This document shows positions 1-64,000 of a stretch of DNA of 64,000 nucleotides, in pieces. Source of the DNA: Ulva prolifera (taxonomy: Eukaryota > Chlorophyta > Ulvophyceae > Ulvales > Ulvaceae); the NCBI GenBank assembly GCA_023078555.1, contig CM041199.1, positions 9,305,315 to 9,369,314 on the forward strand, given 5' to 3'. The notes beneath the pieces were generated by a model that had not been told where the DNA came from, searched no databases, and saw only the letters and a list, made by a program, of their open reading frames with translations. Position 1 is the stretch's first letter, and each line of letters begins with the position of its first letter. The position numbers and the translations under genes are program-made.

Positions 1-2153
1 GTGATGGTGTCCCAGCCACCTGTGTGGCATGCATGATAGCAGTTATGAGCAGGACAGGTACGTGAGACAGCACTAGCAGGAAAGAGATTACAAACGTAAG
101 TGAACACCCCGGACCTGACAGTGTTGGCGGGGTAATCCCACACGCCGATTTGGGCACATCTGAAACATGCCCTCTTCGCTGTATGGCCGATGCTGTTGGT
201 AAGTTTCTCCAGCCATGGGATATCCCCCTCCACACAGCACAGCACCGGCCACACGTGCAGTACCTCGCCCCCTGGCAGTGTGATTTCGAGTGCCTCACCC
301 CCAGCTCCTGCACTCCAGCCATCACGTGGTGCGGGGGCCAGACACTACGTGATCGGGAACTGTACACATCACCCGGCAGTGTCCAGGAAGACAAGGTGAG
401 TGCGCGCCCGGATCATGCTTCTTGAAGAACGCCATCACGGACTCCAGAATGCTGGCCATGCATGTTGGTTCGGATGGCCCCTCCACCACTCCAAGGGGAA
501 TCCAGGCCACATTGGTACTTCAGAGATGGGGCGGCAGGTCAAGCAGGCGGATCCCCCAGATGGTGACACCGTGCTGCTTGTTGACATACAGCTGGGCCCC
601 GTCCCCCCCTGCAGGAAAAGCGACTGTCGGGACACGAGGCAGAGGGTCTCAATTCGCGGAGTTGCATAGGCGTGCCGTTTCGGTGTGCCTGATAGCCACC
701 TGCTCAGATGAGGAGGTGGAGCGCACCGAGGCTGAACAGCAGGACAAGCTCCCTATGCTTTGGCTTCAGGATTTTGCCCCCACACCCCAGGTTGAGGGCC
801 TTTCCAGCCGGGGAGTTGAGGAAGCTGCTTTTGTCTTTGACAGCTGTTGCCCTGGCTTCCCGTACGCTCGTCAGCAGCCCCGGCTGCAGGAGGAGGTCTT
901 TCAGCGAGGCTTCTTCGCCAAAGAAGAAAGCTGAGCGCACTGGGACACCCTTCCCTGTGAGATCGACATCGAATCGCTGTTGACAACAACCAGGGGTTCC
1001 GCAGGTGTCCGCCAAATGCTGGTGATGGTCACCCGGATCAAGTGGGGGGAACAAGGTCCAGCATTGGGGACAAACGTGGCGCGTCACAGAGGAAACAGGC
1101 GGGACACCCAACACCGCCTTGACGAGGTGAAAGGAGGGGGGGAAAAAGTTGCCATCGGGTAGCAGGAGGTAATGTATGAACCTGCACCACGTATCGACGA
1201 CCACGTCTTGTATGCGAAAGAGGCTCTTCAACTGGGCAATCCACATGCACACCGTGAGGACGGTGAGGGCGCTGCCAGTGTATATGTGTTTCATGCGTTG
1301 GTCATGCCACCAGGCGCCCGTGCCCTTACGGGCCCCTGTGGTGGGGAGCGGGCCGTCGTCATCCGCCTCCTGCATGGGCAACGATGCGGCCAGTCCCACG
1401 GAGGAGTACGAGCGGATTCACAGCATTGCATGTAATGGAAGATGAGGACACACCTCGGATTCGTCTGAACTGTAGTCCGTCTCTGAGGAGAAGGCAATGG
1501 AGTCTGCGTCTGAGGTGTCTGAGTCGGCGTCTGAAAATTGTGCGGGGCCCTCGGCATAGTCACTTTCGGACGGTGGGGGCAGCTGTACACAATCCCAACA
1601 CATCAGAGTTGCTTTGGGCGAGCAGGCAGGTTACAGCTGAGGGACAGGAGCGCTGACACCCATGGCCATCGTGATCACGAGCCGCTGTCAGGCCGATCTG
1701 CATCATGATCAGGCAAACCGGGACTTAGCACGGTCAACTACCGAAGGTACGCACGTCGAAGAGGTCGTCGGAGTGGGCAGGCTCATCGGGGGGACCCCCC
1801 ATGGCTGGAGGTGATGGGGATCTCCCAGAGGGACCGGCCCCGTCGTGTCTGCCGCTGCGGTCATCATCGGCAGTAGCGGAGGTCGGGCCAGCGGCTGGCC
1901 TCGAGTCTGGGCCCGCGTCGTCGTGTCCACCAGCGGCTCTCCGCGATGCGGCTGCTGCACTCAGTCGACGGCTGCAAGGACCGTGATGGTTTTGGGCGGT
2001 GTTGTGCCTCTGAAACTTCTCACCACAGGCTAGACACTGGTATTTAAACGGTTCCTTCCCCGTCGGCTCGGGAGGGATCAGGCGCTTACAGTTCGCTTTG
2101 GCAACAAAATCGTTCACCTCCGCCCTCTTCAGTCTATTTGCCGAACCGGCCAT
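1..2153 (-). pseudogene. Tnp2-like (CACTA) transposase, N-terminal part, one in-frame stop
   Basis: DNA transposase of the Tnp2/Transposase_21 type, expected to cut and join the ends of its own element in the nucleus. The start is the ATG at 2153 in a GCTACCATGG context. Exon 1 (2153-1755) has a C2HC finger at C40, C43, H56, C60, then an Ala/Pro-rich acidic linker. Exon 2 (1582-1454) is Asp/Ser-rich. Exon 3 (1369-727) has a cysteine cluster, HVCPQC followed by CGTPGC. Exon 4 starts at 608 and gives SLGGDGAQLY then LPPHL, a family signature with the first catalytic Asp. A TGA at 522-520 interrupts it directly after LPPHL. A further exon from about 307 to 114 carries VEGDIPWLEKL and ACFRC, the second-Asp region. 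Introns 1754-1583, 1453-1370 and 726-609 are GT-AG and phase-consistent. The exon 4/5 junction is unresolved. The gene continues beyond base 1. The stop argues that this copy is inactive, unless it is a sequencing error. Confidence 0.7.
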
Positions 2154-2490
2154 GGTAGCCAGCCGTACTTAAGCATTCTTGTGACGAGGTTCCACAATAG
2201 CGCGGCCTCTGGTGTTTGTCGTCCCTATGATGGCATTACGTCCCACGAAGACCTCCCTGTCGCATCCCATGTTCGCACTGACGCCACAATCCCTGGCGAG
2301 GCGCCGGGGTATCGAGGCAGCCAAACCTTTGAAGGCGGACCGCGCGACGACGCTACATCGGCATACCATTCAAAGCACGGAGCAGCAAAGCATGTGCGAA
2401 TGACGCGATATGTTAGCTGTGCCTACGATACGACCATCCACAGTACCGGCCATAGACGTGTGTTAATTCCGCTTTGTCTAATCATCCACC
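2154..2490. promoter_or_regulatory. Divergent intergenic region, presumed bidirectional promoter
   Basis: This 337-bp gap separates the transposase start (2153, minus) from the companion gene start (2491, plus). No TATA box or repeat stands out by eye. The promoter role is inferred only from the head-to-head arrangement of the two genes. Confidence 0.35.
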
Positions 2491-4844
2491 ATGTCCAACC
2501 TGCAGTTCACGTTCCTCCGCGCGGCGCCCGTCGTCATCGAGAAAGAAGTTGTAGAAGACGCAGACAACGGAGCAGGGATGCTTGACGTGCTGGTCAGCAA
2601 CGTGTGGAGCAGAGGTGCCGGCGTCGACGGGTTGACTTTGACGTCAACCGTCAACAAAGACAGCTCCGTTGATATCGACAGTGTCGAGAAACTGATGACG
2701 TGCGTAAAGTACTTCTTCAGGAAAGGCACAATCGCTGGACTGCTGAAGCCGCCCGTGCTGGTGAAGGCGCTGGGCAAGGGCAGAGGGAGCGTGGGACAAG
2801 CGTCGGCAGCCGTCGGCACTGCACACTCCACAGCTACGGCCTTGACTGCGGACCCCGAAGCTGCCAGGCGGTGGGAAACGATGAAGGATGCGGTGATGAT
2901 GTGGACGGAAGGGATGAGATCCAAGGTGGCGGGAATGGCCGATGCCCACACGCAAGGCAAGAAGGTGCAGGCACTAGTGAACCTGGCCCTCCCAGACGAC
3001 GAGAAGGTGTGGGTCGGGAGTATTCTAACGAAAACACAGGCGGACGCACTCGGCAAAGCTGCACATGGGGTACGGCTGCTGTCTCCGACTAACAACGTGA
3101 TTGAAAACTGGGGTCCACTACCACCCCGTCAGGGCCACGGGATCGCATGCCACCGACTGTCAGTGTAGTGTCTTGGCACGTCAGAGTCGCCATTCGCGGT
3201 CAGTATGCAGTGACGGGTATCGTGTACAGGTCGGCAGAACAGGTGAAGCGTACGAAGCTGCTACTAATATCAATCATGCTTTCTACCGCCAGCACGCCCA
3301 TTTGAACGCCGTGACCAAAGAGTGTGCCTCTGCTGATGCTCGGGTTATGCCGTACCTGTTGCCGTGCCCAACGGTGGCGGAGAAGGGAAGCACACAGTAT
3401 CCGCCCAAACGGAGGTGACCCGATGTGCAGGAAGTTTTCGAGACGGGCGTGGGACCATAACACGGGCCTGCGGAGGAATCCCAGCGCCCGCGAGCAGAGG
3501 AAGCTGCTCGCGGCAATGAATGTGTTCCAGAACACCAAGGCATGTCCTCCACCTGGGTCAGAGTTGGAGTGGCCATTCGCCGAATGGCCACTCCAGCGCG
3601 TCATGCATTGTGTTGCACTGCACGCGCCCGGAGTGGCCATTCGCCGAATGGCCACTCCAGCGCGTCATGCATTGTGTTGCACTGCACGCGCCCGGAGTGG
3701 CCATTCGCCGAATGGCCACTCCAGCGCGGCGCGGCCTGCTTGAATCCGCACTTGCATGGCCACTGACCTGCCATTCGGCGACTGTGTTCCAACCAATGTG
3801 GTTCGTGCGCAGTTCACCGTGAGAGGAGACCGCTTCCCTATCGATAGCGAACCCATGAAAACCCCCGAGGCCTGGGCTATGGAGGACGGTGAGTATGTGT
3901 GCGAAGGAATCGCCAAGGTTGCTGCGGCCCGGCGCGCCCGCGAAGGGACCGCTGACTCTCCCGTCCAACGGGGCAAGAGACAAAGGAAGACCGAGAAGGT
4001 ACAATCTCACCACACGCTGTACTGCCCGCCTGAGGTTGGCCATTAAGTGGTACCGGGATTGTACGGGCGCCTGTGTGAGCGGCATGTGCCATCATTCGAG
4101 GCAGCCATGCGTGTACAGGCTCCTACCGCATCGAAGTCAGGAAGACGGGGCACTCATTCCAACAGCGGACGGCGCACAATGCTCGCTGACTTTTCTCCCC
4201 GGCGGCCAGGGCTAGAACCAAGGGCAGACCGCACTGCTGATAAGGACAGTGAGCACCAGCCGGACGTGGATGAGGTGGGTCACGATCAGATGGGTGAAGA
4301 GGAAGAGCCTGATTCTCCCCAGCGGGCAGACGATCGATGCGAGTCCCCGAAGATGGAGTTACAAGCCGCAGCGCCGGTATGTCCTCTTATGATTTGTGCC
4401 AATTGACGCCTAGTCCGATTGTACTTGCCCCACCCATCATCAGACCAGGTGTAAGAGCGCCTGTACATTGCAGAAGTCCAACAAAGCTCTTGAGAAGCGA
4501 AAGGCCAAGGCAGAGAAGGAGGCCGCCTACCAAGCGCGTAGGGATATTCGGAAAAAGATTGAGGATTGCGAGGCTAAGCTGGCAAGGCATCAGCCCAGAA
4601 GCAAGGGTGCGAGTGTGCAGAAATTAAAACAGCAGCTTGCTGTATTGACGGTATGTCACTACCCCGATACACTTGATCTGACATGTGACACCAATGCCTG
4701 CAATTGTAGCACTATTTGTGTGACAGTCGCTCAGACCACGAATGCATTAGAGCCGTGCACTCATGCAGCTGGTATTGCATGCAGGCCGAGTTGTCAAAGG
4801 TGCAAGACTCCTTAATTGACGGCTTCCCGAAAGAGGACGAGTAG
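2491..4844 (+). CDS. Element companion gene, seven predicted exons, coiled-coil C terminus, function unknown
   Basis: Not recognised as any known family. The exons I derived are 2491-3069, 3230-3351, 3431-3539, 3813-3998, 4119-4376, 4474-4650 and 4785-4844. They total 1491 nt (496 residues plus TAG) and all phases agree. Introns are GT-AG, except the fourth junction (3540-3812), which is GC-AG with donor AAG|GCATGT. The start has a CCACCATG context. Residues 1-193 (exon 1) are helical-looking without Cys/His clusters. The middle is basic (HNTGLRRNPSAREQRK, RGKRQRKTEK), then acidic (GEEEEPDSPQ). The last two exons form a Lys/Glu-rich coiled coil, with LKQQLAVLT joining AELSKVQDSL across intron 6, which supports that splice. 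The gene is divergent from the transposase, so it may be an accessory (TnpA-like) DNA-binding protein; that is inference. The weakest joins are introns 1, 2 and 3. Confidence 0.6.
3566..3722. repeat. Three palindromes in 64-bp tandem register
   Basis: A 29-bp perfect palindrome (14-bp arms around one base, GGAGTGGCCATTCG and its complement) occurs at 3566-3594, 3630-3658 and 3694-3722, exactly 64 bp apart. The two 35-bp spacers are identical. The array lies entirely inside the predicted GC-AG intron 3540-3812 of the companion gene. A related half, GCCATTCGGCG, recurs at 3770-3780. In RNA each copy would fold into a stable hairpin. Confidence 0.9.
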
Positions 4845-5339
4845 ACATGCCAGTGCATTGTATGGTTGTATTTGGGCCATCTCAGGACCATCTTGCAGCC
4901 TGTACGTATACATAGGTCCTTTGCCCGGTCCTGCCCGCGGAATGTCAGGGAGTCTGTCCTGAGGAAATGTGTGGGAGTGTGAGCTATGTATGAATCTAGC
5001 GATGAAAAGGAAAGCACGCGCCATGTAAGCACCTACAGCATATGAATGCAGGCATGTTGCCAACTGCAGCCCCGTGTTCACGTGCCTCATAACAAAGAAA
5101 ACAACCACATCATGCTTCCACAAAACCGCGATCCTTCCTGCACTCCGCTTACATGTGCGCGACAAAGTCTGATCCGGTAATAACGCCCATGACGCCTTTG
5201 GTCAAGCATTGCGTGTCCACAAGTGCACACTCCTCGTAACCATACGTGAGTATATCTCAAGCCAGACGGATACATGTACGTCAAGAGGTCACCAATCCTA
5301 CGGCCCAGCCTGTACTTCCCGCATCCCCGAGGCGGACGC
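4845..5339. other. 3' flank of the companion gene, no gene seen
   Basis: Nothing coding is supported here. The open frames are short, lack splice support and show no protein-like composition. The stretch probably holds the 3' untranslated region and part of the element's end region. Confidence 0.5.
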
Positions 5340-5635
5340 CATACGGATCCGAGACGGATCCGAAATTTAGTGCACGCGTCCGTAGTCCCTCCGTCGGACG
5401 CACAACGGAACCGTCTTTTCTTCCGTACATCCTCCGGTTGGGCTCCGAAGGCAGGCTAGTAACAAAAGGCGTTGCCCTGGGGCGTACCGGACGGGAATCG
5501 GAAAATCCTACCTGCCTCTGCCCCACCTCCGCCACAAGTCTCCGATACTCCTAGCAACCTACGTCCGGCCTCCACCGATTCTCCGTAGGCTCTCCAACTA
5601 CCCCTCCGCACACACTACGTCAGCTCTCCGATTCA
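5340..5635. repeat. Subterminal repeat cluster of element 1
   Basis: About 13 copies of TCCG lie in roughly 300 bp, mostly in contexts such as CTCCGTA, CCTCCG and TCTCCGAT, with a few inverted copies (ATCGGA, CCGGAC). Read inward from the terminus the motif is about TACGGAGR. Dense degenerate repeats next to the ends are typical transposase-binding arrays in CACTA elements. Binding is inferred. Confidence 0.55.
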
Positions 5636-5657: not shown

Positions 5658-8600
5658 TATGTAGGCATGTTTCCATGTCCGTGCAGTATGCCGGGCACTA
5701 TGTCGGGCACTATGTAGGAATGGTTCCATGTCCATGCAGTGTGTCGGGCAGTATGTTGGGCACTATGTTGGGCACTATGTAGGCATGGTTCCATGTCCGT
5801 GCAGTGTGTCGGGCACTATGTCGGGCACTATGTCGGCATGGTTCCATGTCCGTGAAGTATGTCGGGCACTATGTCGGGCACTATGTTGGGCGCTATGTCG
5901 GCATGGTTCCATGTCCATGCAGTATGTTGGGCACTATGTTGGGCACTATGTAGGCATGGTTCCATGTCCGTGCAGTGTGTCGGGCACTATGTCGGGCACT
6001 ATGTCGGCATGGTTCCATGTCCGTGAAGTATGTCGGGCACTATGTCGGGCACTATGTTGGGCGCTATGTCGGCATGGTTCCATGTCCATGCAGTATGCCG
6101 GGCACTATGCCAGGCACAATGTAGGCATGGTTCCATGTCCGTGCAGTATGCCGGGCACTATGTCGGGCACTATGTAGGCATGGTTCCATGTCCGTGCGGT
6201 ATGTCGGGCACTATGTCAGGCACTATGTTGGGCACTATGTCGGCATGGTTCCATGTCCGTGCAGTATGTCGGGCACTATGTTGGGCGCTATGTCGGCATG
6301 GTTTCATGTCCTTGCAGTATGTCGGGCACTATGTTGGGCGCTATGTCGGCATGGTTCCATGTCCATGCAGTATGCCGGGCACTATGTCGGGCACTATGTA
6401 GGCATGGTTCCATGTCCGTGCAGTATGTCGGGCACTATGTCGGGCACTATGTTGGGCACTATGTCGGCATGGTTCCATGTCCATGCAGTATGCCGGGCAC
6501 TATGCCAGGCACTATGTAGGCATGGTTCCATGTCCGTGTGGTATGTCGGGCACTATGTCAGGCACTATGTTGGGCACTATGTCGGCATGGTTCCATGTCC
6601 GTGCAGTATGTCGGGCACTATGTCAGGCAATATGTAGGCTTGGTTCCATGTCCGTGCGGTATGTCGGGCACTATGTTGGGCGCTATGTCGGCATGGTTCC
6701 ATGTCCGTGCACTGTGTCGGGCACTATGTGGGGCACTATGTTGGGCACTATGTCGGCATGGTTCCATGTCCATGCAGTATGCCGGGCACTATGCCAGGCA
6801 CTATGTCGGGCACTATGTCGGCATGGTTCCATGTCCGTGTAGTATGTTGGGCACTATGTTGGGCACTATGTAGGCATGGTTCCATGTCCGTGTAGTATGC
6901 CGGGCACTATGTCGGGCACTATGTAGGCATGGTTCCATGTCCATGCAGTGTGTCGGGCACTATGTCGGGCACTATGTCGGGCACTATGTTGGGCACTATG
7001 TAGGCATGTTTCCATGTCCGTGCAGTATGCCGGGCACTATGTCGGGCACTATGTCAGGCACTATGTTGGCATGGTTCCATGTCCGTGCAGTGTGTCGGGC
7101 ACTATGTCGGGCACTATGTCGGCATGGTTCCATGTCCGTGAAGTATGTCGGGCACTATGTCGGGCACTATGTTGGGCGCTATGTCGGCATGGTTCCATGT
7201 CCATGCAGTATGTTGGGCACTATGTTGGGCACTATGTAGGCATGGTTCCATGTCCGTGCATTGTGTCGGGCACTATGTCGGGCACTATGTCGGCATGGTT
7301 CCATGTCCGTGAAGTATGTCGGGCACTATGTCGGGCACTATGTAGGCATGGTTCCATGTCCATGCAGTGTGTCGGGCACTATGTCGGGCACTATGTCGGG
7401 CACTATGTTGGGCACTATGTAGGCATGTTTCCATGTCCGTGCAGTATGCCGGGCACTATGTCGGGCACTATGTCAGGCAATATGTAGGCTTGGTTCCATG
7501 TCCGTGCGGTATGTCGGGCACTATGTTGGGCGCTATGTCGGCATGGTTCCATGTCCGTGCACTGTGTCGGGCACTATGTGGGGCACTATGTTGGGCACTA
7601 TGTCGGCATGGTTCCATGTCCATGCAGTATGCCGGGCACTATGCCAGGCACTATGTCGGGCACTATGTCGGCATGGTTCCATGTCCGTGTAGTATGTTGG
7701 GCACTATGTTGGGCACTATGTAGGCATGGTTCCATGTCCGTGTAGTATGCCGGGCACTATGTCGGGCACTATGTAGGCATGGTTCCATGTCCATGCAGTG
7801 TGTCGGGCACTATGTCGGGCACTATGTCGGGCACTATGTTGGGCACTATGTAGGCATGTTTCCATGTCCGTGCAGTATGCCGGGCACTATGTCGGGCACT
7901 ATGTCAGGCACTATGTTGGCATGGTTCCATGTCCGTGCAGTGTGTCGGGCACTATGTCGGGCACTATGTCGGCATGGTTCCATGTCCGTGAAGTATGTCG
8001 GGCACTATGTCGGGCACTATGTTGGGCGCTATGTCGGCATGGTTCCATGTCCATGCAGTATGTTGGGCACTATGTTGGGCACTATGTAGGCATGGTTCCA
8101 TGTCCGTGCAGTGTGTCGGGCACTATGTCGGGCACTATGTCGGCATGGTTCCATGTCCGTGAAGTATGTCGGGCACTATGTCGGGCACTATGTTGGGCGC
8201 TATGTCGGCATGGTTCCATGTCCATGCAGTATGCCGGGCACTATGCCAGGCACAATGTAGGCATGGTTCCATGTCCGTGCAGTATGCCGGGCACTATGTC
8301 GCGCACTATGTAGGCATGGTTCCATGTCCGTGCGGTATGTCGGGCACTATGTCAGGCACTATGTTGGGCACTATGTCGGCATGGTTCCATGTCCGTGCAG
8401 TATGTCGGGCACTATGTTGGGCGCTATGTCGGCATGGTTCCATGTCCGTGAAGTATGTCGGGCACTATGTCGGGCACTATGTTGGGCGCTATGTCGGCAT
8501 GGTTCCATGTCCATGCAGTATGCCGGGCACTATGCCAGGCACAATGTAGGCATGGTTCCATGTCCGTGCAGTATGCCGGGCACTATGTCGCGCACTATGT

Positions 8601-40900: not shown

Positions 40901-41345
40901 TATGTCGGGCGGTATGTTGGGCACTATGTCGGGCACTGTGTTGGGCACTATGTAGGCATGGTTCCATGTCCGTGCAGTATGCCGGGCACTATGTCGGGCA
41001 CTATGTAGGCATGGTTCCATGTCCGTGCAGTATGCCGGGCACTATGTCGGGCACTATGTAGGCATGGTTCCATGTCCGTGCAGTATGCCGGGCACTATGT
41101 TGGGCACTATGTTGAGCACTATGTCGGCATGGTTCCATGTCCGTGCAGTATGTCGGGCACTATGTCGGGCACTATGTAGGCATGGCTCCATGTCCGTGCA
41201 GTATGCCGGGCACTATGTCGGGCACTATGTAGGCATGGTTCCATGTCCGTGCAGTATGCCGGGCACTATGTCGGGCACTATGTAGGCATGGTTCCATGTC
41301 CGTGCAGTATGCCGGGCACTATGTTGGGCACTATGTTGAGCACTA

Positions 41346-41368
41346 CGTCTACACAGGTCGTCGCTCAT
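41346..41368 (+). repeat. Left terminal inverted repeat of element 2
   Basis: Perfect 23-bp match to the complement of 49793-49815. It is preceded by TA at 41344-41345, which belongs to the satellite. Its inner end contains CGCTCAT, the complement of the ATGAGCG subterminal motif. Confidence 0.95.
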
Positions 41369-42360
41369 GCGTATGAGCGCCTCCGTATGAGCGGCAATAT
41401 GAGCGGTAAGTTCACCATGTTTGGGTCGAAACGCTGACCTGGAGAATGTGACATCATTGGAAGCATACCGAAATTCGGCTCGTGCGGTTGAATAGCCTTG
41501 CAATTTCATGGTCAAGGCCTGTACCTGGCCAGATTGCGTCATTTGATGAAGAGTCCGTTGCCGAAAGCATGCAGGACTGCTCTGCGCGGGGACGCTCGCG
41601 CTGACCGCTGGTAAAGGTGCTGGTGGAAGCTATCACGACGATCCCGAGGTCTGCATTAGCAACTTTGACATACGTGCAATCTGCTGATTTTATGCACCAC
41701 GAGCATCGGTGATGGACCCGGCCGGTTCGCTCTTATTCAGACTGGCTTTCGACTTGAAGACCACCATTCTAGGCACATGGATTGATCAATGATGAATGAT
41801 GATGAAGGCATGATGGCCGAACAGCCTTCAGGTAACCATGGTCGGTTACCGCGGGTCTGAGAGCGGTCTGTTTCGGCTCTGGCGCTTGAATGTGAGTGTG
41901 GCGCAGAGGGTGATCGGCGATGAACCAGGAATGCAGTCTGACGAATATGGAATAATAACAAAAGAGATCACGGGAGAAGTCAAACACTACACGCCTGTGG
42001 CCAGGCCCGCGCACAAAGCTGTACGGGTCTGTTTATCATTCGATAATGTCCTCCCATCTGGGCGCGCACAGGTTAAGCCTGCACAGTCTACCATCTGGTG
42101 CATGTTTTGTGACAGCAGTTTGTGGTCGACGCCTCGTCCTCGTGGGCTGCATAGCAAAGACGATCACGTCGTGATCATGTGCACCGACAGCGTCGGCGGT
42201 CTCACCGCCACCCCGTGAAGCATTACTTCCGATACGATACACAGATACATGGTGTGTTATGCGATATGCGTTGACGACTCAGACTGTTGGTCTTGCCTGT
42301 CACCAGCGACGTGCCGATTGTGCACGACCAGGTGTAACCGGGTCTCACTTGCGTCAAATA
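41369..42360. other. Left subterminal and 3' flanking region of element 2
   Basis: ATGAGCG occurs at 41373-41379, 41387-41393 and 41399-41405, next to the TIR. From about 41410 to the transposase stop at 42361 no gene is supported; the open frames are short and lack splice or compositional support. Confidence 0.55.
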
Positions 42361-45300
42361 TTACACCTCGTATCCGCGCGGCTGGGCAGTCAAATCCACC
42401 CGAAACTGGTAGTAGCTACTCAGTTTGTATCCCTGCGATCTCTCAAACTCGCGAAACCGCCTCCCTGCGACAGTTTTATCGCTCACCGGTCGCCACTGGT
42501 CCACTCGCTCTGTCCCAAGCACTGGAAGGACTCTGACTGGTGTGGCAGTCTGACACGGTGCAGCGATCGCGCAAAACGCAATACCTTTGTATGCATCATC
42601 ACTTCTTAGTCGATCTTTCCCGAAACCATCAAGTGCGCCTCGACATTTTGTGACTGCAGCCGCTTCTGCGGCGATGTCTGTATCCTTCCGTTTGCTACCT
42701 GGACGTACCGTTTTCCGTAGCTTCGATTCTTGTCCAGCTTCCGCAATTTTCTGATTCAGGTGTCTAATGTCCGCTGGGTATTCTGCTTCCCCAATCCGCG
42801 ACCACACCATGCGGTCGCATCCGTAGAATTCGGCATTTGGGTCTGCCCTCTGCAGCAGACTACTTACAGAAGATACATTTCGTCGTCTTTGTGGGCGCAG
42901 GCGGTGTAACCATCTCAGGAGGTTGACTTGAGCCGTGCGCTCCTTCGGATTCGTGTCCGAGTCTCCCACCCGCAACTCGGTGAACCCAGACCCTGCTGCG
43001 TCCGGTCTGCATACCAGCATCGTAAGTCCTGTACATAATAGAAACACCCATTTAGTGGGTGGAAGGGAAGACTCCCCCTTTATGACGGCGTTGAATTGTT
43101 TGCGATAGTTGATGCTGTTCTGTCTGGCCTCGAGTTCCTTGTCTGTCGTCTCTTGCACTTCGCTGTCCGTCAAGAAAAAGTTCAAGTGGCTTGGTCTGTT
43201 CATGAAAGACACCTGCAAGCTCCGAATCTCCGAGATCCATTTTCGGCCGCCTTTTTGGCCTGTGGCAGTGGCCCCGTCGCATGTGCTGATGGCTACTGCA
43301 TATCTCTGCACCCCATGAGGGGCTCCTGGTACCTCTCGGAACGCACCTGCCGTAGGTGGGCACTGCCTGCGTCACCGTGGTTGTAGTACGTCACATTGAT
43401 GTTCGGGCTGGTCACCAAACACAGCCTCAGAAGTGTCTGCTTCAAGCCTCCCGTTGTCCGAAGATTCTCTTCGACCTGCTGCCCCAGATACTTTTCCAAG
43501 CAGTACGGCAGTGACAGTAGCTCGGGCAACTCCAGTACCTGTTGTGCCGTATCGACGACAACCCCGTTTGTGATCGCAGTCTCTAGCCCAGCCCGCACCG
43601 GGGCACTCACCTCGCCCTCCTGAAGGCGCCTGATCGCTTCCATCCGAATGCTGTGACACCGCGCTTGTTGCCGTCCAGCCCCTTCGAGCCCGGCCGCCTC
43701 CGTTATAGCGGCGCACGGGCTCCCACGCAATTGTCTTGGTGTCCCTCTCTGTGCCTCTGCCATTGCCAGGAGTACCTGCATGTGTAAGTGCGCGTCTCAC
43801 AGTCAACCATCCCTGTGGTCAACGTCTTTCACACAGTCTTGGCTAAAAACCGGCCGGGGTAGGGGAGGCGGGGTGGGGGGAACTACAAGGTAAAATAATC
43901 TGGTACGGAACGTGCTGCCGTTCCCGGTTCGGTGGACCGCTGCGACGTGGTCCAGTTGAATGTGTCGGACTATCGGCGCCGATTCTCTCTTCTGCATTGA
44001 CCTTGGGGGATCTTTGTCTATGATCCTTTGCCGTGTTCCCTGTGCCGGGTCCTCTCTGTTGTGCAGCTCGGTCACAATGGAGGTGGCTGTGATTCTCCCA
44101 AACAATAAAGCACCCAATCCCGGGTTCATGTAGGCCTCGTGTACAAGCGATTGCCATCTACTGGCATGTATGGCATGCATTTCGCGCCAGGTTTGCGGTG
44201 CCATGTTTGTCATCCTCACTATTTTCTTCTGGTCTTTGTGTACAGTTTCGTATATGTTCGTGTTGTGCTCCTGCACATGTGAACTGGTCACGAGCGTCAT
44301 GAATGTTACCTCCACCATAGCTCATCCCGACTGACGCTGGGGGGTGTTGTGTCTGAAATCCCCTCGGCCTTGCCAGGGCTGTTGCGGTTCCGCTGCCGCA
44401 GTATAGCATGCCAGAGTACTGATCGTTGTGGATTGCAGGGCAGGCACATGATTTTGTGTTCGCACCTGTAATCCGCCATGTGTCATCATTTTTTCTGTTG
44501 CGTGTGAAACGACCAGATGCGTCTTCAGTACCCTTGCTTGTGTCAACGCTTCACTGCTGTCATGAAGTTGTTCCAAAAACTTGCGCATGATAGGGAGGAA
44601 CACATGTCCGATGTGATCTTGAAGGCCATCTGCTTCCTGTTCAGTCCAGCCCACGTACGAAAGGTTGTCTCTCAAGAGCAAAGCCCCCAACGCTGTGAGT
44701 CTGCATTCTATCCGACCTGAACTTCCTCCATCATGCCCATAAAATATGTAGGGTGGCATTGCAGAGCTCATGGGCCACTATGGGGCTGGAGCCGGAGAGT
44801 TCTTACTGTGCCAGTGCCAGTGGAGCCGCCGTGTGTGCCGCGCCCGGCAGTCCGTCAACAACGTACGTTAACACAGCCTGAACACGATTCATTTCGGCAC
44901 CTTGGAGCTTGCCGCCTCCCACTGTGTCGCTTGGTCCCACTAAGCCCCCCTTGAAGGCCAGGGGAAGGGAAGCAAAGGGTGGGACCACAAAGACGGCTAC
45001 TTCGTCAAACAAATAATTAAGGCGATCGGTAAGCTCTGCTTTTGTGATTTTTCTCCTTAACTCCTTTCCAAGCCCGGCCAGTAGGGATATTATGCTCTGC
45101 ACTTGTGAGAAATAGTCATTTTACACAAGCTTACGGATTTGACTGAGTGGGACAATTGTAGCGGTGTGGCGCGACCCCCACCATGCCACGGGAGCATGAT
45201 ACAACATAGCATGCAACATACTTTCAGTTGATCCAGCCCGAATCGCTTCATCACGCCTAGTGTCCAGTGATGCAGGTGGTCCACCCCCCACAACTCTGGG

Positions 45301-47514
45301 AGGGCGCCCCACTCAAACTGCGAGTCCCAGAATATGCTCTGTAGTGCTGGGCTAGAGGCTTTTATGCCTGCACAACACGAGTGGTCAAGACTCAGACGTG
45401 GCACGCTTCATAAGGTCCAGTTTGATCTGTCGCCGTATCCTTCGTTACTCGTTTTGTGGAACCCTTTGCTATGCCACAATTACAGATTTGTAGGCTTCCT
45501 GTGCCGGGACTTACCTTGTCTTTTCATCTCTGCCTTTGACCCTGACTCTCGTATTGCTTCTGCTTCTCTGGGACTCCGGTGTTTGCGGTCTTCTGGGGAA
45601 AGCTCATGTGCTGCGAGGTCAAATTTGCATGTAGAGGTGTGGCATAGCAAACAGGCGGCATCTGTGCCTCCATTGACGCTGTCAAGCCTAAACGCGAATC
45701 GCTGCATCAGCCCCATTGTAGCTGCAGCCTCTACGGTGTCCATAATCAATGTACCCACCATTACGTCGCAATGGACTGTCAGGTAGGGACCTCTTGAATC
45801 AAACGCCGGCTCGACACTGCTGTGGCGTAACAATTCTTCTCTATCCTTGTGAAATTTCACCCATACCTGCACCAGATCAGGCACGCATGGTTGTAACATG
45901 CTGAGTGCATATGCCGTCCGGATACCATTCCCCTTCTTGGATCTGGACCATTCGTCATCCCGGACCAACATTGGCGGGGGTAGCGCACTCCGCATTCTGG
46001 CTGCGTAGCCGTCCCTATATCTCTGAGCATCTCCTTCCACATCGCTGCGGTGGTGGCACTTATAGCGGCGTCGATGTCTGCCACGCGTACATGCTCTTGG
46101 CCTTTTGGCCTCTGTGCAAGTACCCATTCCTTCACATTTGGGACCATGCACAGTAGTTGTATCGCATTCTGACGCAGACTGGCATCTACATTCATCGGTG
46201 CCACAAATATAGGGTACAGCTCACTGCAGCAGCACGCATTGGCTTATCTAGATCTGTCTCTATATGCTGCAGTCCCAGGCTACTGTTGACTCTGCCGGAT
46301 AGGGTGTGGTCGATCATGCAGCACAGGCTTGTCAAACCACTGTCCTTTTAAGAGAGGTCACCTTTTGGCAATTGGGCTGATCAGGGTCTTGTCAAAGAAT
46401 ATTGCCACTGCGAAAATGGGCCTTGTGGACTCTGCTAACCCTAGTCCGCCCTGCATCCGGGCATGAATCCGAGCCTGCACGTCGCCCCACCATCAGCTGT
46501 TTGTGGTGCATGACTGTAACTCATACAAAGTCGCCCTGCCTTCTACGAGGGGAGCGGAACCTGCTTCGCTTGGCGTACAGCCGAGCCGTGCATGAAACTC
46601 ACGACTCTGCCTGCCATGTCAGCGTCGAGGGAGCCCTCAGAGGTACTGACTGGATCCATGCGTATGTTGCAGTTCTCGATGACAGGATTCTGAAGCGAGC
46701 AGCTCAACACTTCAGCGATTGGCCTGATGAACAATGGGACCGGGGCCAATTGCCTGAGTAATGCGTGATCTGATACAATAGGTACTTCCCTGGCTGTCAT
46801 CTTGCATCGGTACTTGTCTGCTTTGTCATCCAGGTATTTATTCAGTGCTTCAACTGTATGGATCGTGGGCCGTCTCTCGTGCTCAGGTCGGGATGTCTGC
46901 CTTCTCAGCACTTCCAGCAGGCGCACCCCCATGAAGTAATTCCTTTGCTGTACTGCTGTAAGGTCTTTGAGCATCCATGCAATGATATCATTCGCTATCA
47001 ACATATTCTCGACGTATGCAGGTACAGATGCACCTGATGGTTGCTCTCCATCACTGTCGGGTTCGGAGTTGTCCTCACTCGTAGCGTCTGGAAGAGTAAA
47101 GGTTGGCCAACCTGTGTCTGCTGTCTCCGTATTGCACTCAGGCTTGCACTCCGTTTCACATTCTGGTTCACCGAGATCCTGTCCGTAGAGACCCTTGTTG
47201 GTGCCTGGCTGGGCTGGGGCGAGGTGGGGCTTAGTGGTGTGATTGTATTCTGCTGGATCATGGGCTGTTTCTGCTTGAGGAACGCTGGGGAGTATCATAG
47301 ACTCTGCAGATCTGGTAGCCAGTCTGTTGGTAATGCTTGCAGCGGCCTGATTGTTTGTCAATTTTGTAAGTACCCGTTCATTGTATGACCGGTCTGCTGT
47401 GGTCCGCTTCGTGATGAAACCCCTGCAATGCCTTCTGTGTGCTGCTAGCGCGCCTCTACATGGCGCCCCCACTATAGCCATCCCGCACGTGTCACATACA
47501 ATAGCTGGCTGCAT
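42361..47514 (-). CDS. Plavaka/KDZ-type (CACTA superfamily) transposase, multi-exon
   Basis: DDE-type DNA transposase expected to move element 2. Exon 1 (47514-46603) has a C2HC finger (C7, C10, H26, C30) and an acidic linker. Exon 2 (46450-46362) carries IFFDKTLIS with the first catalytic Asp (about residue 324). Exon 3 from 46223 continues as ELYPIFVAPMN; the phase 2 junction gives KSELYPIF, matching the family's K-S-x-x-P-V pattern. Later come HCDVMVGTLIMD with ACLLCH (second Asp region, about 45760-45640), GVDHLHHWTLGVMKRF (DxxH motif, about 45290-45240), and KTHLVVSH...THGGLQ joined across intron 44465-44271 to EHNTNIYETVHKDQKK. These motifs occur in family order. The region 43781-42361 is a C-terminal extension or a second product. 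The frame shifts near 46000-46040, by an unresolved intron or a mutation. Exons between 45.5 and 44.5 kb are not fully delimited. Confidence 0.65.
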
Positions 47515-48802
47515 TCATCCAAATTTGAAACAGCAGCGGGGCGGATCGCTAGCGCACGGACTGGTAGATTACTCGTGCGGCCTTTTCACATCTGCAGTCC
47601 GGTCGGTAACTCTTCCAACTGAGTACTCGCCGGAGGGGGTGTCACGAGGCGTCTGTAATCAACGTCGTGAATATGTACAGATGCTGTGCTTCTTATCGCC
47701 CGTCGTAAACCGTCCTGCACGTTGAATCCGACGGGGACGGTTGGTCTCCCCGTTTGATTCGAGCAGGCGCGTGTTGCGTGGTCGATCGGGCTGACGAGGG
47801 GGTGTCGCTGTACACGTAGGATGAGGTCTGACACGGATCTGACATCACCCATAGCACAGGCGGCAAAAAGTACAAGTGACGTCTGACGGCCTTGTGGTGA
47901 ACACCGCCCCACAGAAGAAGAAGTAAACGAGCGTGAATTTCCAAAGAAAACTCCAAAACCAACATGATATGCCGAGACGGACTTTAGCAGAGATGTGATG
48001 GGTACCCAGGAGAACGCACACGCGACACCGGTGGCCATGGCTACACGGGCCGCGAGTGCCCCGTTGTCACAAAACGAGTCAACGGAAGGCTCCGCCTAAC
48101 GCAGCCATGACGAAATCAGATCAGTACATGTCAGCTTCCAAACCGCATCCTCATGGACAATCTTATTATGCCACTTCGTCGGTTGTGTGCGCTCCGGAAG
48201 ATAAGAATTGCGCCCTTTTTGATCGTTAACGCTGCTGCACCGCAGTGCAGAGGTACCATCGCTGCAGAGGACATATGTCTTCACAAGTACGTTTCTACTC
48301 GACAGATGGATAAAGTGTGGGTGATTGTCATACCGTCCTCTTAGCACCGTTCATTATGACGAGAAAGGGGTACCTGGTGCGCCATAGAGCGCCCCCCGCC
48401 TTGCATATAGCGTCCATCACATGGCATTTAAATGGCTGCGATTATGTCATGATAATCCATCAGTGCCAGATCGCGTTGTCAGGTGTCGTCGGTAGTATCG
48501 TGGCGTAACAACGCAGGCAACTGTTGGTTGTCAAACGGCGAAAGCACGAACCTGCGGACGAAGCAGACTAATCCAATGCAGGTGATTATTTACAAAAGAG
48601 ATGCAGGTGATTGACTTTTGACAGTTACGAGAAACCGCCACTGACGATCAAGAGGCAGAGACGACACATCTCAGCGCAAATGGATGGGAGAGACACAGAA
48701 CACAATTTTGACCGATGATCAGTAAGGTAGTATGTTTCCTACTCGTATGCATTCAGGCTTCGGTCCAGTAACACCGGCTGTGCAGATCGTTTGTTTGTTC
48801 AG
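47515..48802. other. Upstream region of the element 2 transposase, no gene assigned
   Basis: This stretch probably holds the transposase promoter. Open frames on both strands are short and show neither conserved motifs nor convincing splice sites. A 33-codon frame from ATG 47998 on the plus strand is too small to support. Confidence 0.4.
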
Positions 48803-49733
48803 GCATCGACGGTTGACCAGGTCGCCCAGCTACTTGTGCAGGTCAGTTCATACATGGTTCGGCGTTTGGCATCGAGAGACCTGAGTATGACCTGTTTGTC
48901 CCATCAGCTACGACAATGCGACAGCGTGCGTCGAGTCATTGACACATCAGGTACGTGTACAATTGTCAATTGCAACTGCTACAACGCTGTATGGGTTGAC
49001 AAGGAACAATGCATACAGGTTACTTTCTTCAAGGGGGCTGCAGCCTGCCCGAACAGCTTCAGACGAGCTCGAAACAGCAATTGCACGGACTCGGAGCCAT
49101 GGCAGGTAGGAGCCTCACAGCCTTGCACGCTTGCGGCACAGCCCAGGCGGAAGCCGCTTGGGCTGTGCCGATGACGCATATGCATGCACCACCAGTGACA
49201 GCCCAGGCGGAAGCCGCTTGGGCTGTGCCGATGACGCATATGCATGCACCACTAGTGACAGCCCAGGCGGAAGCCGCTTGGGCTGTGCCGATGACGCATA
49301 TGCATGCACCACTAGTGACAGCCCAGGCGGAAGCCGCTTGGGCTGTGCCACATGAGGGGCTGACCACCTCCAATGCAGCTCGTACAGACGCAGCTCGCGT
49401 GCGGCGGGTGCAGTGAGCAGGGCCACGCAGAGGGGGGGTGTGCCATGCGCCTGCAGCAAGGCCACGAGTGGCTTTGCTGTTGGGCATGGCATACAGCCTG
49501 TTCTGGGTGGACTGCTGGCCACCAAGCTGCAGCCTGCAGTCATGTACATGATGGTGCATACCCCCCACAATCAGGGGTACTGCCCGGGCAAGCACACTTA
49601 CACAAATGCACATGGTGCTATTCAAACTCGCACTGCTGGTGCCGAAAATACAAAAGTTGTACATCTCGTGAAAAACAAACTCGCTCATATCGAAAATTTT
49701 CCGCTCATATATATGCGGAAAATGGGGGGGTAA
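48803..49733 (+). CDS. Possible spliced plus-strand companion gene of element 2 (tentative)
   Basis: Three short candidate exons have good splice signals: 48803-48841 (acceptor TTGTTCAG, donor GTCAGT), 48908-48950 (acceptor CCCATCAG, donor GTACGT) and 49019-49105 (acceptor GCATACAG, donor GTAGGA). Joined, they keep one frame: STVDQVAQLLVQ, LRQCDSVRRVIDTS, then GYFLQGGCSLPEQLQTSSK. An open frame from about 49413 to the TAA ending at 49733 could be the last exon. The start exon was not found and the function is unknown. If the model is right, the 60-bp palindromic repeats fall in its last intron, as in element 1. Chance alignment of splice-like signals remains possible. Confidence 0.25.
49141..49348. 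repeat. 60-bp tandem repeat with hairpin core, three full copies and part of a fourth
   Basis: The units start at 49141, 49201, 49261 and 49321 (the last is partial). Each has an inverted repeat, CAGCCCAGGCGG then AAG then CCGCTTGGGCTG, with one G-T type mismatch. It is followed by the self-complementary runs GCATATGC and, in copies 2 and 3, CACTAGTG. Copies 1 and 2 differ by one base (CACCAGTG against CACTAGTG). Confidence 0.93.
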
Positions 49734-49792
49734 ATAAGAGCCTGCGTAAGCGACCGTGCATGAGCGTGGACGCTTGTAAATATGAGTGGCAT
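49678..49792. repeat. Right subterminal repeats of element 2
   Basis: CGCTCAT occurs at 49682-49688 and 49702-49708, ATGAGCG at 49760-49766, and a one-mismatch copy ATGAGTG at 49782-49788. The TIR itself adds another copy. The same heptamer clusters at the left end, as expected for transposase-binding sites. Binding is inferred. Confidence 0.6.
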
Positions 49793-49815
49793 ATGAGCGA
49801 CGACCTGTGTAGACG
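49793..49815 (-). repeat. Right terminal inverted repeat of element 2
   Basis: Exact complement of 41346-41368. It is followed by TA at 49816-49817 and the resumed satellite TGTCGGCATGG. Confidence 0.95.
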
Positions 49816-52130
49816 TATGTCGGCATGGTTCCATGTCCGTGCAGTATGTCGGGCACTATGTCGGGCACTATGTAGGCATGGCTCCATGTCCGTGCAGTAT
49901 GCCGGGCACTATGTCGGGCACTATGTAGGCATGGTTCCATGTCCGTGCAGTATGCCGGGCACTATGTCGGGCACTATGTAGGCATGGTTCCATGTCCGTG
50001 CAGTGTGTCGGGCACTATGTCGGGCACTATGTTGGGCACTATGTCGGCATGGTTCCATGTCCGTGCAGTATGTCGGGCACTATGTCGGGCACTATGTAGG
50101 CATGGTTCCATGTCCGTGCAGTATGCCGGGCACTATGTCGGGCACTGTGTAGGCATGGTTCCATGTCCGTGCAGTATGCCGGGCACTATGTCGGGCACAA
50201 TGTAGGAATGGTTCCATGTCCATGCAGTGTGTCGGGCACTATGTCGGGCACTATGTTGGGCACTATGTAGGCATGGTTCCATGTCCGTGCAGTATGTTGG
50301 GCACTATGTTGTGCACTATGTAGGCATGGTTCCATGTCCGTGCAGTATGTTGGGCACTATGTTGCGCACTATGTAGGCATGGTTCCATGTCCGTGCAGTA
50401 TGCCGGGCACTATGTCGGGCACTATGTAGGCATGGTTCCATGTCCGTGCAGTATGCCGGGCACTATGTCGGGCACTATGTAGGCATGGTTCCATGTCCGT
50501 GCAGTATGCCGGGCACTATGTTGGGCACTATGTTAAGCACTATGTCGGCATGGTTCCATGTCCGTGCAGTGTGTTGGGCACTATGTTGGGAACTATGTAG
50601 GCATGGTTCCATGTCCGTGCAGTGTGTTGGGCACTATGTTGGGCACTATGTCGGCATGGTTCCATGTCCGTGCAGTATGTCGGGCACTATGTCAGGCACT
50701 ATGTAGGCATGGTTCCATGTCCGTGCAGTATGTTGGGCACTATGTTGTGCACTATGTAGGCATGGTTCCATGTCCGTGCAGTGTGTTGGGCACTATGTTG
50801 GGAACTATGTAGGCATGGTTCCATGTCCGTGCAGTGTGTTGGGCACTATGTTGGGCACTATGTCGGCATGGTTCCATGTCCGTGCAGTATGTCGGGCACT
50901 ATGTCAGGCACTATGTAGGCATGGTTCCATGTCCGTGCAGTATGCCGGGCACTATGTCGGGCACTATGTAGGCATGGTTCCATGTCCATGCAGTATGTTG
51001 GGCACTATGTTGGGCACTATGTAGGCATGGTTCCATGTCCGTGCAGTGTGTCGGGCACTATGTCGGGCACTATGTTGGGCACTATGTAGGCATGGTTCCA
51101 TGTCCGTGCAGTATGCCGGGCACTATGTCGGGCACTATGTAGGCATGGTTCCATGTCCGTGCAGTATGCCGGGCACTATGTTGGGCACTATGTTAAGCAC
51201 TATGTCGGCATGGTTCCATGTCCGTGCAGTGTGTTGGGCACTATGTTGGGAACTATGTAGGCATGGTTCCATGTCCGTGCAGTGTGTTGGGCACTATGTT
51301 GGGCACTATGTCGGCATGGTTCCATGTCCGTGCAGTATGTCGGGCACTATGTCAGGCACTATGTAGGCATGGTTCCATGTCCGTGCAGTATGTTGGGCAC
51401 TATGTTGTGCACTATGTAGGCATGGTTCCATGTCCGTGCAGTGTGTTGGGCACTATGTTGGGAACTATGTAGGCATGGTTCCATGTCCGTGCAGTGTGTT
51501 GGGCACTATGTTGGGCACTATGTCGGCATGGTTCCATGTCCGTGCAGTATGTCGGGCACTATGTCAGGCACTATGTAGGCATGGTTCCATGTCCGTGCAG
51601 TATGCCGGGCACTATGTCGGGCACTATGTAGGCATGGTTCCATGTCCATGCAGTATGTTGGGCACTATGTTGGGAACTATGTAGGCATGGTTCCATGTCC
51701 GTGCAGTATGTTGGGCACTATGTTGGGCACTATGTAGGCATGGTTCCATGTCCGTGCAGTGTGTTGGGCACTATGTTGGGAACTATGTAGGCATGGTTCC
51801 ATGTCCGTGCAGTGTGTTGGGCACTATGTTGGGCACTATGTCGGCATGGTTCCATGTCCGTGCAGTATGTCGGGCACTATGTCAGGCACTATGTAGGCAT
51901 GGTTCCATGTCCGTGCAGTATGCCGGGCACTATGTCGGGCACTATGTAGGCATGGTTCCATGTCCATGCAGTATGTTGGGCACTATGTTGGGCACTATGT
52001 AGGCATGGTTCCATGTCCGTGCAGTGTGCCGGGCACTATGTCGGGCACTATGTTGGGCACTATGTAGGCATGGTTCCATGTCCGTGCAGTATGTTGGGCA
52101 CTATGTTGGGCACTATGTAGGCATGGTTCC

Positions 52131-61900: not shown

Positions 61901-64000
61901 TATGTCGGCATGGTTCCATGTCCGTGCAGTATGTCGGGCACTATGTCAGGCACTATGTAGGCATGGTTCCATGTCCGTGCAGTATGCCGGGCACTATGTC
62001 GGGCACTATGTAGGCATGGTTCCATGTCCATGCAGTATGTTGGGCACTATGTTGGGCACTATGTAGGCATGGTTCCATGTCCGTGCAGTGTGTCGGGCTC
62101 TATGTCGGGGCACTATGTTGGGCACTATGTAGGCATGGTTCCATGTCCGTGCAGTATGTTGGGCACTATGTTGGGCACTATGTAGGCATGGTTCCATGTC
62201 CGTGCAGTGTGTTGGGCACTATGTTGGGAACTATGTAGGCATGGTTCCATGTCCGTGCAGTGTGTTGGGCACTATGTTGGGCACTATGTCGGCATGGTTC
62301 CATGTCCGTGCAGTATTTCGGGCACTATGTCAGGCACTATGTAGGCATGGTTCCATGTCCGTGCAGTATGCCGGGCACTATGTCGGGCACTATGTAGGCA
62401 TGGTTCCATGTCCGTGCAGTATGTTGGGCACTATGTTGGGCACTATGTAGGGCACTATGTAGGCATGGTTCCATGTCCGTGCAGTGTGTTGGGCACTATG
62501 TTGGGAACTATGTAGGCATGGTTCCATGTCCGTGCAGTGTGTTGGGCACTATGTTGGGCACTATGTCGGCATGGTTCCATGTCCGTGCAGTATTTCGGGC
62601 ACTATGTCAGGCACTATGTAGGCATGGTTCCATGTCCGTGCAGTATGCCGGGCACTATGTCGGGCACTATGTAGGCATGGTTCCATGTCCGTGCAGTATG
62701 TTGGGCACTATGTTGGGCACTATGTAGGCATGGTTCCATGTCCGTGCAGAGTGTTTTGGGCACTATGTTGGGAACTATGTAGGCATGGTTCCATGTCCGT
62801 GCAGTGTGTTGGGCACTATGTTGAGCACTATGTCGGCATGGTTCCATGTCCGTGCACTATGTCGGGCACTATGTTGGGCACTATGTCGGCATGGTTCCAT
62901 GTCCGTGCAGTATGCCGGACACTATGTCGGGCACTATGTAGGCATGGTTCCATGTCCGTGCAGTATGTTGGCCACTATGTTGGGCACTATGTAGGCATGG
63001 TTCCATGTCCGTGCAGTATGCCGGGCACTATGTCGGGCACTATGTAGGCATGGTTCCATGTCCGTGCAGTATGCCGGGCACTATGTCGGGCACTATGTAG
63101 GAATGGTTCCATGTCCATGCAGTGTGTCGGGCACTATGTCGGGCACTATGTTGGGCACTATGTAGGCATGGTTCCATGTCCGTGCAGTATGTTGGGCACT
63201 ATGTTGGGCACTATGTAGGCATGGTTCCATGTCCGTGCAGTGTGTTGGGCACTATGTTGGGAACTATGTAGGCATGGTTCCATGTCCGTGCAGTGTGTTG
63301 GGCACTATGTTGGCACTATGTCGGCATGGTTCCATTTCCGTGCAGTATGCCGGGCACTATGTCGGGCACTATGTAGGCATGGTTCCATGTCCATGCAGTG
63401 TGTCGGGCACTATGTCGGGCACTATGTTGGGCACTATGTAGGCATGGTTCCATGTCCGTGCAGTATGTTGGGCACTATGTTGGGCACTATGTAGGCATGG
63501 TTCCATGTCCGTGCAGTGTGTTGGGCACTATGTTGGGAACTATGTAGGCATGGTTCCATGTCCGTGCAGTGTGTTGGGCACTATGTTGGGCACTATGTAG
63601 GCATGGTTCCATGTCCGTGCAGTATGCCGGGCACTATGTTGGGCACTATGTAGGCATGGTTCCATGTCCGTGCAGTATGCCGGGCACTATGTCGGGCACT
63701 ATGTAGGCATGGTTCCATGTACGTGCGGTATGTCGGGCACTATGTCGGGCGGTATGCTGGGCACTATGTCGGGCACTGTGTTGGGCACTGTGTAGGCATG
63801 GTTCCATGTCCGTGCAGTATGCTGGGCACTATGTCGGGCACTATGTAGGAATGGTTCCATGTCCATGCAGTGTGTCGGGCACTATGTCGGGCACTATGTT
63901 GGGCACTATGTAGGCATGGTTCCATGTCCGTGCAGTATGTTGGGCACTATGTTGGGCACTATGTAGGCATGGTTCCATGTCCGTGCAGTATGCCGGGCAC

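Follow-up and report, generated by a model that had tools for sequence, protein, structure and literature searches.

A probable CACTA/CMC-type transposon with a predicted intron-rich transposase inside one satellite monomer of Ulva prolifera

EnSpm/CACTA elements are multi-kilobase transposons with short terminal inverted repeats (TIRs), subterminal repeats, a short target-site duplication (TSD) of arbitrary sequence and a TnpA/TnpD gene pair; a C(2)C motif follows the second D of their transposase. Transib elements, whose C(2)C and H(4)H motifs are also those of RAG1, duplicate 5 bp and have ends other than those of the element described here. The CMCT clade, as set out in the accessible part of the source, is marked by a DDE triad with C(2)C and H(3-4)H motifs between the second D and the E, by target duplications of 2 to 5 bp and, in most cases, by 5'-CA..TG-3' termini; it includes the fungal Plavaka elements, of which PlavakaA duplicates 2 bp and ends TGT..ACA, while PlavakaB ends CATCA..TGATG (PMC12730594). 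Here we analyse an 8,470-bp element at positions 41346 to 49815 of a 64,000-bp stretch of green-algal DNA (the window, by which we mean the whole stretch), where it interrupts an array of a 53-bp satellite. The best reading is that of a young autonomous CMC-type transposon with a transposase of a kind that Pfam does not recognise. Stated in full, an autonomous cut-and-paste transposon of the CACTA/CMC type, belonging to a divergent CMCT lineage, inserted into a single satellite monomer, a reading to which we assign a probability of about 0.75 and which builds on the observed TIRs, 2-bp TSD, empty site, near-identical copies, end-clustered repeats and an open, intron-containing gene common to other families.

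The element shares with EnSpm/CACTA its size class, its short TIRs, its short TSD of arbitrary sequence, the C(2)C after the second D and the possession of subterminal repeats; it differs in that it does not begin with CACTA, which sets it apart from EnSpm/CACTA proper, in giving no match to the Pfam transposase models and in having one recognised gene rather than a TnpA/TnpD pair. With Transib/RAG1 it has C(2)C and H(4)H in common, although neither of the two PDB matches of its profile, each at the chance level of E 1.1, is RAG1. The duplication of TA at the window site recalls Tc1/mariner, from which the element is set apart by the lack of a TA requirement and by a much larger, intron-rich gene. 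The 2-bp duplication is that of PlavakaA, and C(2)C and H(3-4)H motifs are shared with Plavaka as far as its description was accessible; in contrast, the element ends in CG..CG and not in either of the Plavaka pairs, comes from a green alga, has many introns and no Pfam match, and showed no TET/JBP-type Pfam match among its ten reading frames scanned. No description of the element was found in the literature searched, as represented by titles and the beginnings of abstracts among the matches listed, and the accessible parts of PMC11092101 and PMC12301720 contain nothing on genome structure.

A transposon within a satellite monomer

The host array (plus strand) starts at about position 5658 and runs to the end of the window at 64000. 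The element within it is bounded by TIRs of 23 bp, the left one at 41346 to 41368 (plus strand, beginning CGTCTACACAGG) and the right one, identical to it, at 49793 to 49815 (minus strand). They form a perfect inverted match, as the initial annotation had it, and give the element its 5'-CG..CG-3' termini. A TA is found immediately outside each TIR (41344 to 41345 and 49816 to 49817), as read at the junctions and by comparison with the empty site; the range of 41344 to 49817 first given for the element thus places it properly but takes in both TAs. Joining the flanks with a single TA gives a junction that has exact matches elsewhere in the window: 20 at ±20 bp, 10 at ±30, 9 at ±50, 7 at both ±75 and ±100, 4 at ±150 and none at ±200; if mismatches are allowed, the closest sequences in the window differ at 3 positions over 400 bp and at 7 over 600 bp. 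When both TAs are retained, the best 200-bp match in the window has 60 mismatches. Because the junction with one TA exists exactly elsewhere, whereas the junction with two is 60 mismatches off, removal of the element with one TA restores both the monomer and the local order of the array, as had been proposed, exactly over 200 bp at seven places and over 300 bp at four. We looked for empty sites and found them as sister monomers of the same array, not as polymorphic alleles of another strain. The TIRs, the TSD, the restored monomer and the further genomic copies described below establish a clean insertion of a transposon into the satellite. That the junctions mark an array boundary, a reading also considered, is ruled out by the match of the joined flanks to the empty site. 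The event itself is ordinary for a mobile element; insertions into centromeric satellites are on record, one example being five somatic transpositions in Arabidopsis reported in the accessible part of PMC12312487.

A 27-mer of the satellite has 3210 exact matches genome-wide, all on the forward strand and hence in the same orientation, the first of them at base 23 of contig C2, so that one satellite array sits at the tip of that contig. The array in the window adjoins another dispersed repeat, at positions 1 to 5600, for which at least 25 further genomic places match over at least 2.4 kb at 97-100% identity; a 64-bp tandem repeat lies inside it, at 3566 to 3728. Elsewhere the genome gives 38 matches to the chlorophyll a/b-binding family, many of them to single exons, and one of these is highly similar to light-harvesting proteins in the PDB, which come mostly from plants and green algae; the host is thereby marked as a photosynthetic alga of the green lineage.

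Towards its ends the element carries short repeats, ATGAGCG or its complement CGCTCAT. All eight occurrences in the 8470 bp fall within 60 bp of the left end or 140 bp of the right end, at 41362, 41373, 41387 and 41399 on the left (spanning 41362 to 41405) and at 49682, 49702, 49760 and 49793 on the right (49682 to 49799). Two of the eight, the outermost on each side, lie inside the TIRs, and about one occurrence would be expected per element by an estimate of our own that is not shuffle-based. A 60-bp tandem repeat of 3.5 copies (49138 to 49349, plus strand) allows extra alignment registers in some copies of the element, between which its repeat number appears to vary.

Copies, target duplications and age

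The 23-bp TIR, with up to one mismatch, has 49 matches in the 88.9 Mb of the genome (44 contigs), 40 of them exact, whereas the reversed control has none. A search of the same genome with the left 1.5 kb of the element recovers 11 long copies, 97-100% identical where aligned and each with a right end, which disposes of the doubt, raised at the outset, that the element might have no other genomic copy. Seven of them, including the window copy, form a young group whose members are mutually about 99.8-99.95% identical over 8.5 kb. The window copy has 7 to 17 differences from five other copies of 8465-8470 bp (99.80-99.92% identity); the seventh young copy, L014/15, is 13.6 kb long, with about 5 kb of extra DNA. 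Outside this group, L016 and L020 differ from the window copy by 0.8% and L021 by 2.7%, and the interior of L018/19 (13.3 kb) is a different one. Within the young group the window copy has six substitutions of its own, all outside the TIRs; five are C-to-T or G-to-A changes relative to the majority, a number too small to interpret. The insertion had been called recent on the grounds that its two TIRs are identical. Recency is supported by the identity between copies and the few private substitutions, but dating by the TIRs was abandoned: the 40 exact matches among 49 include diverged shorter relatives, and since relatives with exact TIRs have adjoining end regions that match those of the window element at only about 79-95%, TIR identity alone gives no date. 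The family looks young and autonomous.

A perfect 2-bp TSD flanks 10 of the 11 long copies. On the strand fetched it is TA for the window copy (L009), L010, L013 and L014/15, and GA for L011, TT for L017, AG for L016, GT for L018/19, AA for L020 and CA for L021. Since six of these ten duplications are dinucleotides other than TA, the element is not TA-specific; it makes a 2-bp duplication of no fixed sequence, and TA is what the window site offered. A TA-specific transposon, of Tc1/mariner or other TA-duplicating type, would account for the four TA copies, that of the window included; this reading, which the other six already refute and which fits poorly with a nine-exon gene whose predicted 1297-aa product carries C(2)C and H(4)H motifs and is unmatched in Pfam, we consider to have almost nothing left in its favour.

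Shorter relatives share their end regions with the window element in patches, the regions next to the TIRs showing the 79-95% identity given above. Three of them, L022 to L024, are 4.0 to 6.5 kb long. The TSD could be read in four shorter relatives, as TA, CA, GG and TT; L023 and L024 each have two possible ends on one side, both of which fit a TSD in L023 and one in L024. One pair of family ends (L025/L026, C3:6,478,904-6,500,786), flanked by a matching TT duplication, spans 21.9 kb and is perhaps a very large nonautonomous or nested relative. Comparison of L022 to L026 with the transposase exons at E 1e-3 gave no match, only frames of the end regions matching; the search covered L025/L026 apart from about 3 kb in its middle. 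Two left-type ends, at C9:342,876 and C9:359,013, face one another across 16.1 kb, whereas the long copies are left/right pairs. L016 (TSD AG; with its flanks, C8:5,909,850-5,918,900) seems, as judged by eye from a motif, to lie inside a Ty3/gypsy-like reading frame. In viral contigs 219 pattern matches were obtained, none of them a relative by tblastn.

The remaining long copy, L012, is complete (C2:10,796,721-10,805,190; with its flanks, C2:10,796,400-10,809,000) and is the only one of the 11 whose flanks do not match, the left one giving TC and the right one TA. Its left flank lies in a different tandem array, B, and its right flank is satellite, identical to the right flank of the window over 3810/3810 bp; a 301-bp sample about 13.7 kb further along has an identical counterpart in the window, offset by 2 bp from where it would be expected, and is also identical to two other places in the window. 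Such shared flanks and mismatched duplications, among young copies so nearly identical over 8.5 kb, could mean that the window junction is itself a product of assembly, in which near-identical copies were confused and the wrong satellite flank was joined. We think this improbable, as in the window the two TAs match and the joined flanks reproduce existing monomers exactly over 300 bp, and it is L012 that is inconsistent, its left flank, ending in TC, pairing with sequence that begins with TC at the tip of C2. That contig ends inside another copy (L040), whose right flank is array B; joined with one TC, the left flank of L012 and the right flank at the tip agree with array B at all but 3 or 6 of 200 positions, and a nearby monomer provides the unoccupied site (72/72 and 126/129 bases). 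By samples, satellite-like sequence extends on C2 up to 10.836 Mb and is absent at 10.840 Mb; on C4 the samples at 9.400 Mb (L052) and 9.450 Mb (L070) contain such sequence and that at 9.420 Mb does not. We read these data as two true insertions, into satellite A (the window, with TA duplicated) and into array B (with TC duplicated), with the path through C2 representing either a wrong join or a real exchange between the two copies. Either is more likely to have occurred at C2 than in the window, because the TSDs of the window match, while L012 is inconsistent and pairs with the C2 tip.

The predicted transposase and its class

On the minus strand the element contains a nine-exon gene, from 47514 to 42361, with a frame of 3894 nt for 1,297 aa. 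The model was built from exon-by-exon matches to more distant families of the same genome, at about 27-74% identity; it replaces a first model of 1330 aa, introns 5 and 7 having been changed after comparison with these relatives. Exon 1 (46547 to 47514) holds the start codon and an N-terminal zinc-finger-like motif, C7-C10-H26-C30; exon 2 (45989 to 46223) holds the proposed first catalytic residue, D336, and exon 3 (45515 to 45866) the proposed second, D444, and C473-x2-C476. D548-x2-H551-H552 falls in exon 4 (45222 to 45367), which is followed by exon 5 (44807 to 45096), by exon 6 (44466 to 44700) with H725-x4-H730 and by exon 7 (43884 to 44270) with the proposed catalytic E750. Exon 8 (43347 to 43775) leads to exon 9 (42361 to 43212), which ends in the stop codon and encodes a C-terminal domain that shares about 55% identity with its counterpart in the nearest other family. 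All introns of the window copy run from GT to AG, and the weak donors of introns 1 and 7 make these the least certain junctions. Intron 3 starts with GT in the window copy and with GC in nine of the ten other copies, L018/19 being unreadable there.

The frame is free of internal stops and reaches the same stop codon in 9 of the 11 copies, which bears out the earlier description of the element as intact-looking; of the other two, L016 (3891 nt) contains a single internal stop, and L018/19 is rearranged. The lengths of introns 4 and 5 differ between copies by 1, 5 or 14 bases and the frame is kept. Length changes that are not multiples of three and yet spare the frame support the gene model. Relative to the 97% identical copy L021, dN/dS is 0.40 (31 synonymous and 41 nonsynonymous changes); against the other six young copies the values lie between 0.31 and 1.23, with 4 to 10 changes behind them, an insufficient basis for use.

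The predicted protein can be summarised as D336-(108)-D444-(29)-C473xxC476...D548xxH551H552...H725x4H730-(20)-E750. Among the relatives that cover each site, C7, C10, H26 and C30 are each conserved in 4/4, D336 in 6/7, D435 and D444 in 7/7, C473 and C476 in 6/6, D548, H551 and H552 in 6/6, H725 and E750 in 5/5 and H730 in 4/5. The seven relatives are not independent, as L033, L034 and L036 are nearly alike, and L037 and L038 likewise. The assignment of D336 and D444 as catalytic is our own proposal, D435 being conserved equally to D444. We take the 108-residue step from D to D and the 20-residue step from H to E to agree with the spacing in RAG1, and the wording around the YP-I/V-F and D-x2-H motifs to resemble that of Plavaka. 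Pfam returned no family for the spliced 1297-aa protein or for four aligned members of the alignment of relatives; the ten single reading frames gave two matches at chance level (Bestrophin-like, E 0.07; Epimerase, E 0.2).

TIRs, a TSD of constant length, an empty site and several copies, all of them present here, are together what defines a class II cut-and-paste transposon with TIRs. As to its class, the D-D-C(2)C-H(4)H-E order, with both D placements ours, and the 2-bp duplication of 10 of the 11 long copies agree with the CMCT clade, whereas the CG..CG termini depart from CA..TG, a rule that holds in most cases and is not strictly defining. As Pfam gave no match and the PDB none above chance, CMCT membership would be at the level of motifs, and the family is best filed as a variant near the CMC group. 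Possibly, the element is a DDE transposon of another or new superfamily, its C(2)C/H(4)H likeness to CMCT being convergent or accidental: the lack of Pfam or PDB similarity, the CG..CG ends, the spacing of 29 between D444 and C473 and our own choice of the first two D would all allow it. We consider this unlikely, given that, of the 5 to 6 relatives covering each of the two C, the three H and the E, 4 to 6 retain it, and that a 2-bp TSD with end-clustered repeats fits CMC elements.

If the element is of the CACTA/CMC type, the nine-exon gene would encode its transposase, which may bind the TIRs and the subterminal ATGAGCG repeats, as in CACTA-type elements, perhaps through the zinc-finger-like motif at its N-terminus. 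The DDE site would then excise the element and join it to the target across a 2-bp staggered cut, gap filling by the host would produce the 2-bp duplication, and the satellite would be a passive target.

Implications for the family and the satellite

A more far-reaching proposal is that the element represents an unnamed green-algal lineage of CMCT type, with a single, very long and intron-rich transposase (about 1300 aa, including a conserved C-terminal domain of no recognised kind), CG..CG ends and a non-specific 2-bp TSD, which is still active and able to join the satellites of two chromosomes by ectopic exchange among copies lying in tandem arrays; taken as a whole, we offer this tentatively and would sooner expect it to fail than to hold. 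In any event, elements of this kind can mislead the assembly of satellite arrays. The insertion is also datable, and the exact empty monomers allow the pace of local homogenisation of the array to be set against the element's age. Moreover, a family that looks young and autonomous may still be live and might serve as a transposon tool in a green alga, and a transposase without a Pfam match could extend what is known of the clade that gave rise to RAG1.
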